A stretch of DNA of 64,000 nt, from positions 1 through 64,000 of the IMG/VR virus record IMGVR_UViG_3300045923_000041; one strand, 5' to 3'. Below the pieces are notes generated by a model. The model did not search any database. It was not told the DNA's origin and was given only the letters and a program-made list of their open reading frames with translations. The DNA is from a virus. Below, piece by piece: positions 2,308-46,147 of this stretch; positions within the stretch are counted from its first letter, which is position 1; every line of letters begins with the position of its first letter. The position numbers and the translations under genes were made by a program.

Positions 2308-3545
2308 TGTGCCTCCTGGGCGGCCTTCTTGGCGCGCGGCTTCGAGGTCTTGGGGGTCGGGGGCTCAGTTGAGAACTTGCAGCGCGTGAGGTTGGTCTGC
2401 GCCTCGCCCCTCCATTCCCCGTGCTTCGTGACGGTGCCCGTCACGTAGTAGGACGTTCCGGCTTTCAAGTCCTGTGCCCCCGAATTCCAGATGGCCTTGT
2501 TGCCCGTGACGTCCACGAACTGGTGGATGAACCGTGTACCGAAATCGTTGGTGTACGCGTTCGAGCCCGTGTACGTGAGCACGAAGGTCTCGCGCTTGTC
2601 GATCGTCCCGAAGTGCTGCGAGCGACCCCGGATGGCTGCCCGCGTCAGCTCGCGCCCATGGGCGGATGGGATGGAGGCCGCAAGCCCGAGGGTGCGTCGG
2701 TCCACGAGACCGGAACACGCGATGGCCCGGATGTTGTGCAGGTAGTCATTGATGCCGGCCTGCTCCTCGGTAAGTCCTTCGGCCCATTCAAGAGCCGAGG
2801 CTGCGGTGACGAGATCGGCAGGACTCGGGTGCTCTTTCTTGAGGTCACGGTCGAGCAGACGTTCGAGAGCCCGATCAGCGGTCGCACGGCCGCCGATGTC
2901 GCGCACGGCACTCCGAGGGACCCAACCGTTGCGACGAACCTCCAGGGTGACGTAGCCGAGGTACTCCGCAAGGAGGATGGAGGACGCGCCGCCGCCCTTG
3001 TAGCCGCCGATGTCCTCGGCCGACTCCGCGAGGGCGCACGCGCTGGCGATGAGGCTCGCAGCCTGAGCGACACGGACCACTTTGTCGCTGCCGACGAAGT
3101 CTTCCAGGCAGGTGGACCCGACCTGCGTGTGACGCCCGTCCTCGTGCTGAAGGATGTACGTGTCGTTGCGCTGGCGCTTGTGCTTGCAGTGATCGCAGAC
3201 GGGGCCGCGAGACCAGTAGACCTTGGGGATGTCGATGGTCGAGACCTTGCGTACGATGGTCTCGTCGTCGATGTGTTGAAGCGAGCCGATGAAGGCCCAC
3301 CCGTTGAGGCGCGGGGTCTCGCCCAAGACGGTCAGCGGCACGCGCGTGACCATCGCGTAGAACTCGACCTGGTCACCGTACTCCGGATGCGGGACGCGTT
3401 CCTTCTTCTGGTACGCCTTGCCCCACTCCCAAGAGATGGGAGCGACGCCGAGCTTCTTGGCGCGCTTGACCAGAGCGGCGAAGCCCTGCTCGACGGTTTC
3501 GCGGCGATCCGCGAGGATGCCGAAGACTCGGATGGCGGAGTTCAT
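2304..3545 (-). CDS. Zinc-ribbon protein with C-terminal beta-rich domain, 413 aa
   Basis: The centre holds CDHCKHKRQRNDTYILQHEDG followed by QVGSTCLEDF, a cysteine pair plus later cysteine pattern seen in conserved hypothetical proteins of large phages and plasmids. The N-terminal 100 residues are mixed alpha/beta. The middle is helical. The C-terminal part (TFVLTYTGSNAY, RFIHQFVDVTGNKAIWNSG, TSYYVTGTVTKHGEWRGEAQTNLTRC) is a run of beta strands compatible with an OB-like fold, and the tail is basic (KTSKPRAKKAAQEA). Single-stranded nucleic-acid binding is a reasonable inference but unproven. It overlaps both neighbours by 4 nt, so it belongs to a translationally coupled set. Confidence 0.75.
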   Translation of the reverse strand: MNSAIRVFGILADRRETVEQGFAALVKRAKKLGVAPISWEWGKAYQKKERVPHPEYGDQVEFYAMVTRVPLTVLGETPRLNGWAFIGSLQHIDDETIVRKVSTIDIPKVYWSRGPVCDHCKHKRQRNDTYILQHEDGRHTQVGSTCLEDFVGSDKVVRVAQAASLIASACALAESAEDIGGYKGGGASSILLAEYLGYVTLEVRRNGWVPRSAVRDIGGRATADRALERLLDRDLKKEHPSPADLVTAASALEWAEGLTEEQAGINDYLHNIRAIACSGLVDRRTLGLAASIPSAHGRELTRAAIRGRSQHFGTIDKRETFVLTYTGSNAYTNDFGTRFIHQFVDVTGNKAIWNSGAQDLKAGTSYYVTGTVTKHGEWRGEAQTNLTRCKFSTEPPTPKTSKPRAKKAAQEAQ

Positions 3546-3775
3546 GACGGCACCTTCGGGGGGCGGATCAGGCCGTGCATCTGCGCAACTTCCAGAGCCA
3601 GGCGGGGGTTCTCACGAACATCGCGGAGCGCCTTGATGGCCTCGCGACGGAAAGTCTTCCTGTCCAGCGCATCGAGCGTGCCGTAGATGGACCTCATGAA
3701 GCCCTCGACGAGCGGCGCCTCCTCGGGCTCGCACTTGGAAAGTTCGATGATGATGCGCTCGTACAGGGAAGCCAT
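3542..3775 (-). CDS. Small helical hypothetical protein, 77 aa
   Basis: There are two candidate starts, ATGCACATG. The GGAGG ribosome-binding site touches the first ATG, so the second one (MASLYERIII) is chosen; exactly the same layout recurs at 53.5 kb. The protein is all-helical by appearance, with a charged middle (LDRKTFRREAIKALRDVREN). It is driven by a TTGATT-N16-TGTAGT promoter directly upstream. Function unknown. Confidence 0.68.
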   Translation of the reverse strand: MASLYERIIIELSKCEPEEAPLVEGFMRSIYGTLDALDRKTFRREAIKALRDVRENPRLALEVAQMHGLIRPPKVPS

Positions 3776-3793: not shown

Positions 3794-3821
3794 ACTACAA
3801 CCCCAAGCGAGCGGGAATCAA
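3794..3821 (-). promoter_or_regulatory. Phage sigma70-like promoter TTGATT-N16-TGTAGT
   Basis: On the minus strand TTGATT, a 16-nt spacer ending in TTGGGGT, and TGTAGT precede the 77-aa gene. It is one of five near-identical copies in the window. Here a 12-nt leader containing GGAGG separates the -10 from the first ATG. The -35 overlaps the stop codon of the upstream 49-aa gene. Confidence 0.75.
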
Positions 3822-3967
3822 CTCGACGCGAGGAAATCCAGAAGACCCCCGAACAACCACATGAGGAGCGGCACGACGACCTTGAAGAGCACCACCAGTT
3901 CCAGGCACAGCCTGAGGAAGTGCACCACCTTGTCGATAGCCGCGTCACTGACCAGTTCTCTTCCCAT
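3818..3967 (-). CDS. Small single-pass membrane protein, 49 aa
   Basis: I found this by direct translation. It begins MGRELVSDAAIDKVVHFLRL and continues into a long hydrophobic stretch (CLELVVLFKVVVPLLMWLFG, residues 21-40), ending in LASS. A GAGGGA ribosome-binding site lies just upstream. It fits exactly between the neighbouring gene and the promoter, and its TGA stop is inside the TTGATT -35 element. A single transmembrane helix is clear by composition. It could be a small inner-membrane effector, for example in exclusion, holin regulation or host takeover. There is no recognisable family. Confidence 0.6.
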   Translation of the reverse strand: MGRELVSDAAIDKVVHFLRLCLELVVLFKVVVPLLMWLFGGLLDFLASS

Positions 3968-3975
3968 GGCGTCCC

Positions 3976-4266
3976 TCATCCGTCCGAGTGGAAGTCCTCA
4001 CGGTCGCTGTCGAAGTGCCCGTGCTGCACGTCTCCGTAGTCGAAGTATTCGTCCGAGGCGTCGTTCACCTCGAAGCCTTCCGTCGCCTTGTCATGGCACG
4101 ACGTGCAGAGCCAGTTCGTCGAGGTGTCATGGACCTGCTTGCCCGTCAGGTTCTCGCCGCACTCCTCGCATTCGGGAGTGGCGTCGTGCCCCGATTCCGC
4201 CCACTTCACGAGCAGGTGGTTGTACTCGGGGTTGAGGGTCGGGCCGCTCGGGAGGGGGCTAGACAT
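3976..4266 (-). CDS. Zinc-knuckle protein, 96 aa
   Basis: The start at MSSPLPSGPTLNPEYNH overlaps the stop of the upstream gene; residues farther upstream in frame are Arg/Ser-rich and look non-coding. Two CxxC pairs (CEECGENL and LCTSCHDK) are separated by about 19 residues, a typical treble-clef or zinc-ribbon arrangement also seen in DksA/TraR-like and HNH-associated fingers. The C-terminus is very acidic and His/Asp-rich (DEYFDYGDVQHGHFDSDRED). It may act as a small transcription or DNA-binding accessory. This is inferred only. Confidence 0.7.
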   Translation of the reverse strand: MSSPLPSGPTLNPEYNHLLVKWAESGHDATPECEECGENLTGKQVHDTSTNWLCTSCHDKATEGFEVNDASDEYFDYGDVQHGHFDSDREDFHSDG

Positions 4267-4501
4267 AGGAGACCTCGATCCAGCGCAGGGTGTTGGTGTC
4301 CGTCTCCCGGATGACCCGCGCCTTCTTGAGCAGGGCCACCGCGCGCTGGAAGGCATCACGGCTCATGCCGCCCTTCGCCGCGAACCCGAACAGTTGCTCG
4401 CTCGGGATCTCGCCCTCCGAGCGCACGATGTCCGCCAGCACCTTGAGGAAGTCGAGCGCCTGCCCGATCTGCTCACGCGTGAATCCGTGGGGATTGCTCA
4501 T
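4259..4501 (-). CDS. Small winged-helix-like protein, 80 aa
   Basis: The ATG start (MSNPHGFTREQIGQALDF) lies exactly 6 nt after the TGTAGT -10 element, so the mRNA should begin at or near the start codon and be leaderless. The pattern of helices followed by ALLKKARVIRETDTNTLRWIEVSYV resembles a helix-turn-helix with a beta wing. A DNA-binding regulator divergently transcribed from the 187-aa gene is plausible. No family is recognised. Confidence 0.66.
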   Translation of the reverse strand: MSNPHGFTREQIGQALDFLKVLADIVRSEGEIPSEQLFGFAAKGGMSRDAFQRAVALLKKARVIRETDTNTLRWIEVSYV

Positions 4502-4507
4502 GTAGCT

Positions 4508-4535
4508 ACTACAACCCAACCACGGGCAGAATCAA
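4508..4535 (-). promoter_or_regulatory. Phage promoter TTGATT-N16-TGTAGT (divergent, left arm)
   Basis: Minus-strand TTGATT, a 16-nt spacer ending in TTGGGT, and TGTAGT, with the ATG 6 nt downstream. It is back to back with the next promoter. The two -35 regions form an inverted repeat (AATCAACC and GGTTGATT with 7 nt between). Confidence 0.78.
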
Positions 4536-4546
4536 CCGGACCAGGG

Positions 4547-4574
4547 TTGATTCCTGCGGCGCTCGGGTTGTAGT
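4547..4574 (+). promoter_or_regulatory. Phage promoter TTGATT-N16-TGTAGT (divergent, right arm)
   Basis: Plus-strand TTGATT, 16-nt spacer ending in TCGGGT, TGTAGT, with the ATG of the 187-aa gene 6 nt downstream. It pairs with the divergent minus-strand copy. The symmetrical -35 region could also serve as an operator. Confidence 0.8.
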
Positions 4575-4580
4575 ACCTTC

Positions 4581-5144
4581 ATGGCGACCCCCAAATACTG
4601 GATGCCCACACGGCCCTACAGTGTCATCGACGCCGTCAACAGGATGGCTGCGGCCACGGGCTCGACCGCCTACGCGATGCGGGCGGCCCACGCGGACTAC
4701 AACGGCCACGCCGTGAGGGTTTACTGGAACGACTACCGCGGCTACTGGCTCGCCGAGTACCAGTGGGGCGAACGGGTCGTGCTGGCCCGAGGACAGCTCG
4801 CAGAGGCTCTGTACGCCGCTTGCCGGGAGTACAAGCGGGGCGCTCTGGGGGCGTCCGTACGGGCCGCCTATCCGGAATCAGTCCGGGAAGGAAACGTGCC
4901 CAGCGAATCGATCCCCTACTTCGAGCAGATGTGCGTCGAGCACGGCCTCACGAGCGAGGCGGTGCTCTCCGAGGAGGCCCACCGTGACACGTGGTGGACT
5001 CCCCTGCACGCCAAGGTCAACGAGGCGCTGGACTACGAGCGGCGCGGCTTCGCGCCCGCTGTGGGCTTCCTGTGCAACTCTGCCACTCTGGACGAGTACG
5101 AGGCCAAGCTGAACGCACACTTTGCCGCAAGGCGTCGAGGTTGA
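4581..5144 (+). CDS. Hypothetical protein, 187 aa, leaderless
   Basis: One of only four plus-strand genes. It has no ribosome-binding site; the start codon follows the -10 hexamer by 6 nt. The N-terminal half is rich in aromatic and small residues (VRVYWNDYRGYWLAEYQWGERVVLARGQ) and looks like a beta-sheet domain. The C-terminal half is helical (ESIPYFEQMCVEHGLTSEAVL, AKVNEALDYERRGF, DEYEAKLNAHFAARRRG). Its TGA stop lies inside the -35 of the next promoter. The family is not recognised. Its position and promoter suggest early expression. Confidence 0.72.
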   Translation: MATPKYWMPTRPYSVIDAVNRMAAATGSTAYAMRAAHADYNGHAVRVYWNDYRGYWLAEYQWGERVVLARGQLAEALYAACREYKRGALGASVRAAYPESVREGNVPSESIPYFEQMCVEHGLTSEAVLSEEAHRDTWWTPLHAKVNEALDYERRGFAPAVGFLCNSATLDEYEAKLNAHFAARRRG

Positions 5145-5168
5145 TTCCGGGCGGGCTTGGGTTGTAGT
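5141..5168 (+). promoter_or_regulatory. Phage promoter TTGATT-N16-TGTAGT
   Basis: Plus-strand TTGATT, 16-nt spacer ending in TTGGGT, TGTAGT, and then 6 nt to the ATG of a 54-aa gene. The -35 shares bases with the stop codon of the 187-aa gene, so the gene and promoter were packed together. Confidence 0.78.
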
Positions 5169-5174
5169 CCAGGT

Positions 5175-5339
5175 ATGGACACGAACCTCTACAGCGCGAT
5201 CGAGACGGGCCGCCTTTCGCTGGTCCTCTCGCTCGCAGCTAACCCGCCCGAGACCTACGAGAGCCACGAGAGCCAACCGGGGCCAGAGGCGGAGACTGTA
5301 CGTCCCGCCTCCCGTTCCACGGAGGATGTGGCGGCCTAG
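5175..5339 (+). CDS. Small acidic protein, 54 aa, leaderless
   Basis: MDTNLYSAIETGRLSLVLSL begins 6 nt after the -10 element. The first 25 residues could form an amphipathic helix. The rest is polar and Pro/Glu/Ser-rich (NPPETYESHESQPGPEAE) and probably disordered. It converges on the minus-strand 70-aa gene with a 4-nt overlap of stops. Its own dedicated promoter argues that it is a real, early-expressed effector. Function unknown. Confidence 0.6.
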   Translation: MDTNLYSAIETGRLSLVLSLAANPPETYESHESQPGPEAETVRPASRSTEDVAA

Positions 5340-44709: not shown

Positions 44710-44737
44710 TTGATTCGGGACCGTCTTGGGTTGTAGT
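44710..44737 (+). promoter_or_regulatory. Phage promoter TTGATT-N16-TGTAGT for the lipoprotein gene
   Basis: Plus-strand TTGATT, 16-nt spacer ending in TTGGGT, TGTAGT. The leader then has GGAAGGAG before the ATG 21 nt away. The same promoter family drives the early genes at 3.8-5.2 kb, so the lipoprotein is likely expressed with them. Confidence 0.8.
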
Positions 44738-44758: not shown

Positions 44759-46147
44759 ATGTGGTGCAATTTTTTGGGGGTCTCGGCGGCGGTTGTTTTC
44801 TCGGCGGTTCTCGCGGGATGCGGAGGCGCACCGTTCACGGCGGGTGACGCTGTCGGTGACCCCCCGGACTCTGGCGCTGGCACGGTCGATTCCGGATGCT
44901 GCGGCGACGTTCTGAGCCCCGAGGCGGGCCAGGACTCGCAGCCGACCCCCGAGGCCGGACAGGACTCGAACCCCGGCCAGGGCCAGGACAGCGGCTCCTG
45001 CGTGACCTGCCAGGACGCGGCTCCCGAAGCGGCTCCTCAAGACAGCGGTCACGTCGAGACGGACTCCGGCTCCTCGAACCATGACAGCGGAACGGACCAG
45101 GACTCTGGCACGCCGGATTCCGGCACCGTTCTCTCGGACTCGGGCACGACCTCGCAGGACTCGGGCACGACGACCCTTGACAGTGGGACTGGATGCTCGA
45201 CCGGCGAGACCCTCTGCAACGGTTCCTGCCAGCCTGGCGTCTGCGTCCTCGCGACCGGCACGGTGGGCTCCTACAACTCCGGGATCGCGGTGGCCTCCGG
45301 CTCTGTGTTCTGGTCTTCGTCAACGGCGGTCCTGGACGAGCCGACTTCGGGCGGTTCGCCTTCTACCTTCGTCCCGAGCGCCAGCGAGTACGTCGCTGTG
45401 GACGCCACGAACGTCTACTGGACGACCTCGGACTCCGTCCTCAAGTCTCCGCTGATTGGCGGAAGCGTCACCACGCTCGCTACAGGGTTGAAGACTCCCA
45501 TGGGCATCACCGTGGACGCCGCGAACGTCTACTGGACCAACCAGGGCACCCTGAACAATGACGGCACGGTGGTGAAGTGCGCGAAGAGCGGGTGCAATCT
45601 GCTTCCCACGGTGCTCGCGGCCGGACAGAGTGACCCTGAGGGTATCGCCGTAGACGCCACGAACGTCTACTGGACCAACATCAACCCCTCGGATGCCACC
45701 AGCGGTTCTATTGCGAGCGTGTCGATTGGCGGCAGCATTCCGACCACGATCGCCACGAACCAGTTCAACCCTGTCGCTGTTGTCTCGGATGGAACGAACC
45801 TGTACTGGACCAACACCGGGGACAACTCCGCCGCCAACGGTCAGATTGTGGAGTGTGTGATCGGGTCTTGTGCCGGCACGCAGGTCGCTCTCGCAATCTC
45901 GCAGCATCGCCCGTACGGTCTCGTCGTGGATGCAACGAACGTGTATTGGACCAACGTCGGCACGACCACCGCGAACTCCGGCTCCGTCCTGAGCGTTCCG
46001 ATCTCCGGCCAGGGTCAGGTGGCCCCCAAGGTTCTTGCTTCTGGTCAGGGTGAGCCCACGAGCCTCACCATGGATGCATCGAACCTCTACTGGATCGACA
46101 TCTACCAGAGCGCTGTCGGTCCCACGGTGAACAAGGTCGCGAAGTAG
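44759..46147 (+). CDS. Secreted lipoprotein with Asp-Ser-Gly linker and beta-propeller
   Basis: 462 residues. The signal peptide (MWCNFLGVSAAVVFSAVLAGC) has a lipobox ending LAGC. An acidic DSG-rich linker (QDSG, DSGTDQDSGTPDSGTV and similar) of about 120 residues follows, then CSTGETLCNGSCQPGVC and about seven blades bearing VDATNVYWTN or variants (FWSS, YWTTSD, YWTNQG, YWTNIN, YWTNTG, YWTNVG, YWIDIY). This composition resembles abundant myxobacterial surface lipoproteins and looks like a host-derived moron gene. Possible roles are surface modification or superinfection exclusion. It is on the opposite strand within the tail module. Confidence 0.85.
   Translation: MWCNFLGVSAAVVFSAVLAGCGGAPFTAGDAVGDPPDSGAGTVDSGCCGDVLSPEAGQDSQPTPEAGQDSNPGQGQDSGSCVTCQDAAPEAAPQDSGHVETDSGSSNHDSGTDQDSGTPDSGTVLSDSGTTSQDSGTTTLDSGTGCSTGETLCNGSCQPGVCVLATGTVGSYNSGIAVASGSVFWSSSTAVLDEPTSGGSPSTFVPSASEYVAVDATNVYWTTSDSVLKSPLIGGSVTTLATGLKTPMGITVDAANVYWTNQGTLNNDGTVVKCAKSGCNLLPTVLAAGQSDPEGIAVDATNVYWTNINPSDATSGSIASVSIGGSIPTTIATNQFNPVAVVSDGTNLYWTNTGDNSAANGQIVECVIGSCAGTQVALAISQHRPYGLVVDATNVYWTNVGTTTANSGSVLSVPISGQGQVAPKVLASGQGEPTSLTMDASNLYWIDIYQSAVGPTVNKVAK

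Follow-up and report, generated by a model that had tools for sequence, protein, structure and literature searches.

A putative phage promoter regulon with lineage-specific spellings and predicted leaderless mRNAs in a jumbo-phage clade, and a sigma-like protein as its likely reader

Introduction

In the Thermus jumbo phage phiYS40, which uses the host polymerase, most middle and late mRNAs are leaderless (PMC3594737; original report PMC1885378). The phage group described here is similar to phiYS40 in combining a large genome with leaderless mRNAs, which in our case are predicted, but it differs in that leaderless and Shine-Dalgarno (SD)-led genes share one tight promoter, in that this promoter has a lineage-specific spelling, and in that a sigma-like gene, sigX, accompanies it. 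SPO1 gp28 and gp33/34 are phage sigma factors that give middle and late promoters a private −35/−10 pair; unlike these factors, sigX is predicted to have its region 2 interrupted by a MerR-like insert and to serve a largely leaderless regulon. Leaderless genes of Actinobacteria and Deinococcus-Thermus have a TANNNT −10 element a few nucleotides before the start codon (PMC12340547, PMC3160421). In contrast to those cellular, sigma-A-type promoters with little −35 signal, the elements here consist of two invariant blocks, with TGTAGT and its relatives.

Among other phages, the divergent promoters PL1, PR2 and PL2 of Cluster O mycobacteriophages have predicted leaderless mRNAs (PMC4351075), but they are SigA-like, just three have been described, and they lack the lineage-specific spelling found here. 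The start-associated sequences of Cluster K mycobacteriophages, mentioned in the same paper (PMC4351075), are repeats tied to gene starts; they form a single block beside the start codon, whereas the element here is a two-block promoter. A leaderless lambda transcript is mentioned in PMC3160421, and the 5′ UTRs of the jumbo phage AR9 span 26–491 nt. No link was found between the moraphages (PMC12619734) and this phage group. In the open-licence literature searched, which excludes subscription papers and preprints, there is no description of lineage-specific leaderless promoters, of this phage group or of sigX. Leaderless phage regulons as such are already known; what looks new is that the spelling is specific to each lineage and goes together with what seems to be a private sigma factor.

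Results

Five exact two-block sites in the window

The window, the whole 64,000-nt stretch of DNA analysed here, contains five exact copies of TTGATT-N16-TGTAGT against 0.01 expected, and five or more were obtained in none of 100 shuffles (Table 1). Allowing mismatches adds no site with one mismatch and two with two, for seven matches in all against 1.27 expected, and the 126,452-bp virus record from which the window was taken (G000) has just these five exact sites over its whole length. Three of the five place an ATG at one given offset, for which p = 1.7e-5 as calculated from ATG frequency. The initial annotation had described five near-identical copies with the positions and strands of Table 1, an ATG exactly 6 nt past TGTAGT at three of them and SD-containing leaders at the other two. 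All of these claims held, the three being sites 2, 3 and 4 and the two being sites 1 and 5, and all five copies are exact.

Table 1 Coordinates of the putative promoter sites in the window and of the ORFs behind them
Feature	Position	Strand	Description
Putative promoter site 1	3794..3821	−	Predicted leadered; TGTAGT to ATG 3775, 18 nt; GGAGG 6 nt before ATG
P0004, ORF behind site 1	3542..3775	−	77 aa; no family found
Putative promoter site 2	4508..4535	−	Leaderless geometry; AGCTAC then ATG at 4501; 6 nt from TGTAGT
P0001 (read from its M), ORF behind site 2	4259..4501	−	80 aa; weak winged-helix matches below cut-off
Putative promoter site 3	4547..4574	+	Leaderless geometry; ACCTTC then ATG at 4581; 6 nt from TGTAGT
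P0002, ORF behind site 3	4581..5144	+	187 aa; no family found
Putative promoter site 4	5141..5168	+	Leaderless geometry; CCAGGT then ATG at 5175; 6 nt from TGTAGT
P0003, ORF behind site 4	5175..5339	+	54 aa; no family found
Putative promoter site 5	44710..44737	+	Predicted leadered; 21 nt to ATG 44759, preceded by GGAAGGAG
P0005, ORF behind site 5	44759..46147	+	462 aa; no family found; DSG repeats

Sixteen exact sites in a 363-kb phage record

When viral contigs were scanned for TTGATT-N12-GGGTTGTAGT, 33 stretches were returned, eight of which lie within a single phage record of 362,937 bp, IMGVR_UViG_3300044796_000662 (G001); the other 25 have one match each and were not inspected individually. 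The five sites of the window recur in G001 at one constant offset, and the two records show no difference in three compared stretches, 16,128 bases in all, or in a 70-base overlap. The last 82 bases of G000 mismatch G001 at that offset, and the records differ near the end of G000. In the scripted counts given for G001, the sequence of G000 was substituted for positions 74,931–201,382.

In the G001 record the exact pattern occurs 16 times; no site has a single mismatch and 16 have two, and a reversed-pattern control gave nine matches. Among the spacings of 10–25 nt that were tried, exact hexamer pairs occur at a spacing of 16 only. Both the sites and their spacing are directly evident in the sequence. 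The motif of the initial annotation proved too short, as the fixed letters of the 16 sites extend past both hexamers to G-TTGATT-C and, before TGTAGT, to T-N-G-G-G-T, in which the second G is a G at 15 sites and an A at one. The flanks and the interior of the spacer are variable, and therefore the sites are not recent duplications. An ATG begins exactly 6 nt past TGTAGT at nine of the 16 sites (p = 6e-14), and at five others a start codon lies 17–21 nt downstream of the −10 block together with an SD-like word. Fourteen sites in all point at a gene. The remaining two (51801, minus strand, and 58761, plus strand) have no gene start within 60 nt, and their folding as RNA is unremarkable (z −0.40 and −0.72).

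A home-made gene caller picked the 6-nt ATG in eight of the nine G001 cases and missed one. Its first version rewarded SD words, and SD percentages from the caller are therefore biased. A homologue in five relatives exists for 4 of the 14 genes behind G001 sites and for 253 of the 397 remaining genes (Fisher p = 0.011); on these homologue counts, the genes that follow the sites are largely accessory.

A lineage-specific spelling of the putative promoter

Relatives of G001 were collected through P0006, a conserved sigma-region-4/HTH protein of this phage with 19 further loci in viral contigs. The G001 pattern itself, with up to three mismatches, is found in just three of 17 records: 17 matches in G001 (one of them weak) and two each in G006 and G008, where the matches carry two or three mismatches. 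When all pairs of 6-mers 13–20 nt apart are counted in each record, a promoter-like element comes out as the top dyad in all six of the records read that are at least 250 kb long. It is TTGAAC-N17-TGTACT in G002 (12 copies), GGTTGA-N17-GTGTTC in G004 (8 copies), GTTGAT-N16-CTGTAG in G006 (43 copies), the same element in G008 (18 copies), and GCTGAA-N17-GTAGTA in G012 (20 copies); G002 was read to position 400,000 of 406,734. For the five genomes tested, the best dyad scores are 36.7–281.9 in the real sequences and 17.3–20.5 in shuffled ones (one Markov shuffle each).

No promoter-like top dyad is present in ten fragments of 40–184 kb (G003, G005, G009, G010, G011 and G013–G017). When an ATG is required, G011 yields four sites of the form CTTAA-N16-CCGTT-N9-ATG, a sixth spelling, and the same ATG-constrained search gives nothing comparable in the other nine. 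The ten negative fragments might simply lack the accessory region, yet they are counted as negatives. Each of the lineages has its own spelling, which is near-invariant across its regulon, and this lineage specificity is shown by the sequences themselves.

Start codons cluster at 6 nt

One profile per genome was built for a set of five genomes (G001, G002, G004, G006 and G012), with a threshold that allows at most one match in a shuffled copy; the five-genome counts exclude G007 and G008, both closely related to G006. The profiles give 254 matches, of which 198 have an ATG and an ORF of at least 30 codons within 40 nt and 56 have no ORF start within that distance. In G001 there are 27 profile matches, 11 more than the exact sites, and these 11 are probably false. 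The ATG lies at exactly 6 nt in 108 of the 198 cases, at 5–9 nt in 149, at 10–15 nt in 6, at 16 nt or more in 37 and at 0–1 nt in 6, and the peak at 6 nt is seen in all five genomes counted. The scarcity at 10–15 nt fits a transcription start (+1) seven nucleotides past the −10 block, because such leaders are too long for a leaderless mRNA and leave no room for an SD. A pyrimidine directly precedes 101 of the 108 ATGs at 6 nt, versus 842 of 1458 ATGs of other ATG-started genes. An excess of pyrimidines at this position is expected of a transcription start site and supports the A of the ATG as +1.

An SD-like word is present at 29 of the 41 sites whose ATG lies at 12 nt or more. At offsets of 5–9 nt it occurs at 41 of 149 sites, all in two genomes (G006, with 34 of 72 sites, and G012, with 7 of 32), and it is absent from every such site of G001 (9/9), G002 (14/14) and G004 (22/22). 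The −10 block of G006 (TGTAGGA) itself forms SD-like words, which fall within the hexamer and the following 6 nt at 25 of 48 leaderless-geometry sites; the absence of an SD is therefore no argument for leaderlessness in that genome.

The geometry of ATG and block pair is plain in the sequences; that the sites are transcribed, and that +1 is the A of the ATG, is inferred. There are no transcript data, and we nonetheless regard it as very likely that the sites are promoters. More than half of them should probably yield leaderless mRNAs, which is a prediction in the absence of mapped 5′ ends. The same element appears to drive leadered genes too, mostly with an SD-like word, an inference that again rests on sequence and not on transcripts. 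The proposal in the initial annotation that one promoter sequence serves both kinds of gene is supported, and extends to the relatives; its reading of the sites as promoters of leaderless mRNAs is supported as the best reading, with leaderlessness remaining a prediction. It contained neither the lineage-specific family with its other spellings in relatives nor the co-occurrence with a sigma-like gene.

Homologous genes keep the putative promoter as the letters change

Promoter-driven genes of one genome tend to find promoter-driven genes in another. Of the best matches among the five genomes, 26 of 73 from promoter-driven queries are themselves promoter-driven, compared with 49 of 2346 from other queries (odds ratio 26, p = 8e-23); the test includes the 156 of 198 promoter ORFs for which a called gene was identified and leaves out the others. 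The cross-genome list comprises fifteen promoter-driven homologue pairs. In one 400-aa family the leaderless geometry, with exactly 6 nt, is found in G001, G002, G004 and G006 under four spellings. A 118-aa gene at 2534 in G001 is SD-led and its homologue in G004 is leaderless in geometry. The association with homologous genes is shown; that the regulon consists of early or takeover genes is inferred. As homologues keep their promoters under a changed spelling, the elements are taken to be functional and the spelling to shift together across the regulon, for which we consider this strong evidence.

A divergent sigma-like protein as candidate reader

In a family search, weak matches to sigma region 2 are found in G004, G011 and G012, all below the cut-off, and the same search does not find sigX of G001, G002 or G006. 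With the matched proteins as tblastn queries, homologues are found in G001 (310,068–311,066, minus strand), G002 and G006. The members of this family are 290–511 aa long. Sigma70_r2 is the top Pfam match of all six sigX proteins, each time under the curated cut-off (14.3–20.9 bits versus 24), and there is no Pfam match to region 4. The protein is not in PHROGs, a collection of 50,697 phage records holds no relative, and a sigX profile run against PDB sequences found no sigma factor.

The predicted models are of middling quality (pLDDT 72.7 and pTM 0.46 for G001 sigX; 71.2 and 0.40 for G012 sigX), and Foldseek gives nothing lower than a best E of 1.2. In a second structural comparison, sigma factors account for 12 of the 13 rows with Z of at least 5 for G001 sigX, the best being E. 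coli sigmaE region 2 with −10 DNA (Z 6.5, 87 residues), and for 43 of 44 such rows for G012 sigX (best Z 7.4). The sigma-like rows cover both halves of the protein, and the insert between them corresponds to a winged helix of MerR type (Z 5.4 and 5.2 with 5d90). Some rows of G012 sigX align residues to 290, over two domains, at an rmsd of about 20. All rows have Z below 8, possibly a common arrangement according to the tool, and some chain identities were inferred from entry titles. The models predict that sigX is a divergent sigma-like protein whose region 2 is split by a MerR-like insert, with structure serving as support and not as proof. The predicted C-terminal helical domain might represent region 4.

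Of the eight promoter-bearing records, seven carry the gene (G001, G002, G004, G006, G007, G011 and G012); in G008, a 275-kb record with promoters, no match to sigX was found. It also occurs in five further records (G018–G022), in which a G001/G006-like pattern has no match or one; the same pattern also misses G011. In three of six cases sigX itself follows a promoter of the phage's own type (G004, G006 and G012), with leaderless geometry in G006, and the sigX genes of G001 and G002 have no such promoter. A 485-kb relative, LR745208, in which P0006 is 43 percent identical, has no sigX match and no detected sigma region 2. It carries 45 CTAAAA-N15-CCGATA sites, which resemble sigma28/FliA promoters; their ATG offsets are spread, and an SD-like word is present at 40 of the 45. 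As these sites have no fixed offset, tightness of a phage promoter family is not enough to bring the 6-nt rule. That sigX reads the two-block promoters is inferred: there are no transcript or protein data, and core binding and initiation are untested.

P0006 was also considered as the promoter reader. This candidate was rejected, as the protein also occurs in LR745208, whose promoters differ greatly, and so does not track the motif.

Discussion

We consider it likely that these sites form a phage-specific promoter regulon of a jumbo-phage clade, probably read by the private factor sigX; transcription, the position of +1 and the role of sigX are inferred. No RNA polymerase beta subunit was detected in the phage, and the use of host core polymerase is therefore assumed; a search for a T7-type polymerase gave no match, but its positive control gave none either. 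In the proposed mechanism, a −35-like block (TTGATTC) and a −10-like block (GGGTTGTAGT) at fixed spacing would form the promoter, to which the divergent, ECF-like sigX would steer the host RNA polymerase. Transcription would begin with the first purine, which lies 7 nt beyond the end of the −10 block. If the six letters that follow this block are taken as −6 to −1, the A of an ATG at 6 nt is +1; this A would become the 5′ end of the mRNA, and translation would proceed from a 5′-terminal AUG. A private specificity factor would be the likely reason for the near-invariant spelling that each lineage has of its own. It is mere speculation that the MerR-like insert could read the GGG letters adjoining the −10 block in G001.

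A bolder reading, which we would neither favour nor discount, is that of a private transcription language, in which a fast-diverging sigX, a lineage-unique spelling and a +1 built onto the A of the ATG would together uncouple an accessory regulon from host promoter recognition and from SD-dependent translation. Under this bolder reading there would be positive feedback where sigX follows its own promoter, and the spelling of the regulon would change in concert with sigX. If true, the phages would offer a natural set of sigma-promoter pairs that are orthogonal to one another and an illustration of concerted change in the promoter spelling of a whole regulon, and the use of leaderless mRNAs by large phages as a bypass of host translation control would become testable. 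The rule of two blocks, 6 nt and ATG could also correct start codons in unannotated jumbo-phage genomes.

The alternative that deserves most attention keeps the promoters and the leaderless mRNAs and makes a host sigma factor, housekeeping or ECF-type, the reader, with sigX acting elsewhere, for instance in late transcription; the spellings would then differ because the phages infect different hosts. This remains possible. The lack of a detectable beta subunit means that host polymerase is probably used, the TTGA- at −35 resembles that of sigma70, and the FliA-like sites of LR745208, which has no detected sigma region 2, make the use of a host alternative sigma factor conceivable in the group. 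ECF promoters are resembled by the CTGAAC-N15-CGTAGT of G012, which also favours a host reader. Against it stands the absence of drift, with all 16 G001 sites identical in 12 letters that include a non-consensus G at the second −10 position, as does the tracking of the promoters by sigX in seven of eight records. A scan of genomes from 84,980 cellular species with the longer pattern likewise speaks against it, as the 88 stretches found are scattered over unrelated taxa; all but one hold a single site and one holds two, and the rough chance expectation is on the order of 100.

Two further explanations are, in our judgement, very unlikely. The element could be a repressor operator or another protein-binding repeat, akin to mycobacteriophage stoperators or the Cluster O repeats, and short near-identical intergenic repeats are indeed known in phages (PMC4351075). 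However, the two blocks are separated, non-palindromic and at promoter spacing, they point at a gene in 14 of 16 sites, nine of the 16 have the start codon at a constant 6 nt, and the geometry is the same in relatives with changed letters; this fixed 6-nt distance fails the criterion for stoperators, a location unrelated to promoter elements and start codon. Alternatively, the block before the ATG could be a translation signal, an mRNA element in transcripts that begin further upstream, as its nearness to the start codon and the SD-like letters it often includes in G006 would suggest. This is countered by the second block, which lies 16 nt further upstream at constant distance, and by the occurrence of the same pair 17–21 nt before start codons that have an SD word of their own. 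The regulon read by sigX remains our preferred reading.

Genes behind the sites of the window

A few minor observations concern the genes next to these sites. Rfam has no match in the window, in L128 or in L137. Sites 2 and 3 are arranged back to back, and site 4 overlaps the 3′ end of the P0002 ORF. The home-made gene caller starts P0002 21 nt further in, in the same frame. P0005, the ORF behind site 5, is taken to be lipoprotein-like and resembles a Myxococcota lipoprotein.

Genes and sites of the promoter family

The gene for a 1294-aa protein with a DUF6094 methyltransferase match sits downstream of a family promoter in the 362,937-bp phage record G001 (Table). The lipoprotein-like product encoded behind promoter site 5 looks similar to Myxococcota proteins. 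Two perfect promoter sites, at G001 51801(-) and 58761(+), have no gene start within 60 nt; they could conceivably give rise to non-coding or very short products, and the RNA folds at both were unremarkable. Because the final 82 bases of the G000 record (stretch L004) do not match G001 (L130) at the constant offset, the two records differ at the G000 end.

Features of the window and of G001
Feature	Position	Strand	Matches or context
Lipoprotein-like protein with DSG repeats	window 44759-46147		behind promoter site 5; phage genome
1294-aa protein	G001 353620-357504 (L137:12320-16204)	minus	DUF6094 methyltransferase + weak helicase matches
P0006	G001 237736-238371 (L131:16436-17071)	minus	sigma region 4 + second HTH
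132-aa small protein	G001 301449-301847 (L135:149-547)	plus	strong sigma region 4 match, E 1e-12
P0008	G001 238409-240361 (L131:17109-19061)	minus	phrog_6386 match, E 0.0013, + 5'-3' exonuclease

Sigma-like proteins and LR745208.1

P0006, in which region 2 was not detected, is found in G001, at 19 further loci and in LR745208, and the 132-aa protein has homologues in the related records G004, G009, G010 and G013. P0008 appears to be a fusion of an antiterminator-like N-terminus to a 5'-3' exonuclease, as inferred from sequence alone. A search of the LR745208.1 record for sigma region 2 detected none. This 485-kb phage record (L298-L307) carries 45 copies of CTAAAA-N15-CCGATA, which are sigma28 (FliA) promoter-like, with an SD-like word downstream of 40 of the 45. 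An additional Cys-rich, HNH-like insert lies within sigX, the divergent sigma-like protein, of records L336, L332, L333, L335 and L337; its PHROG match, in G004, is weak.
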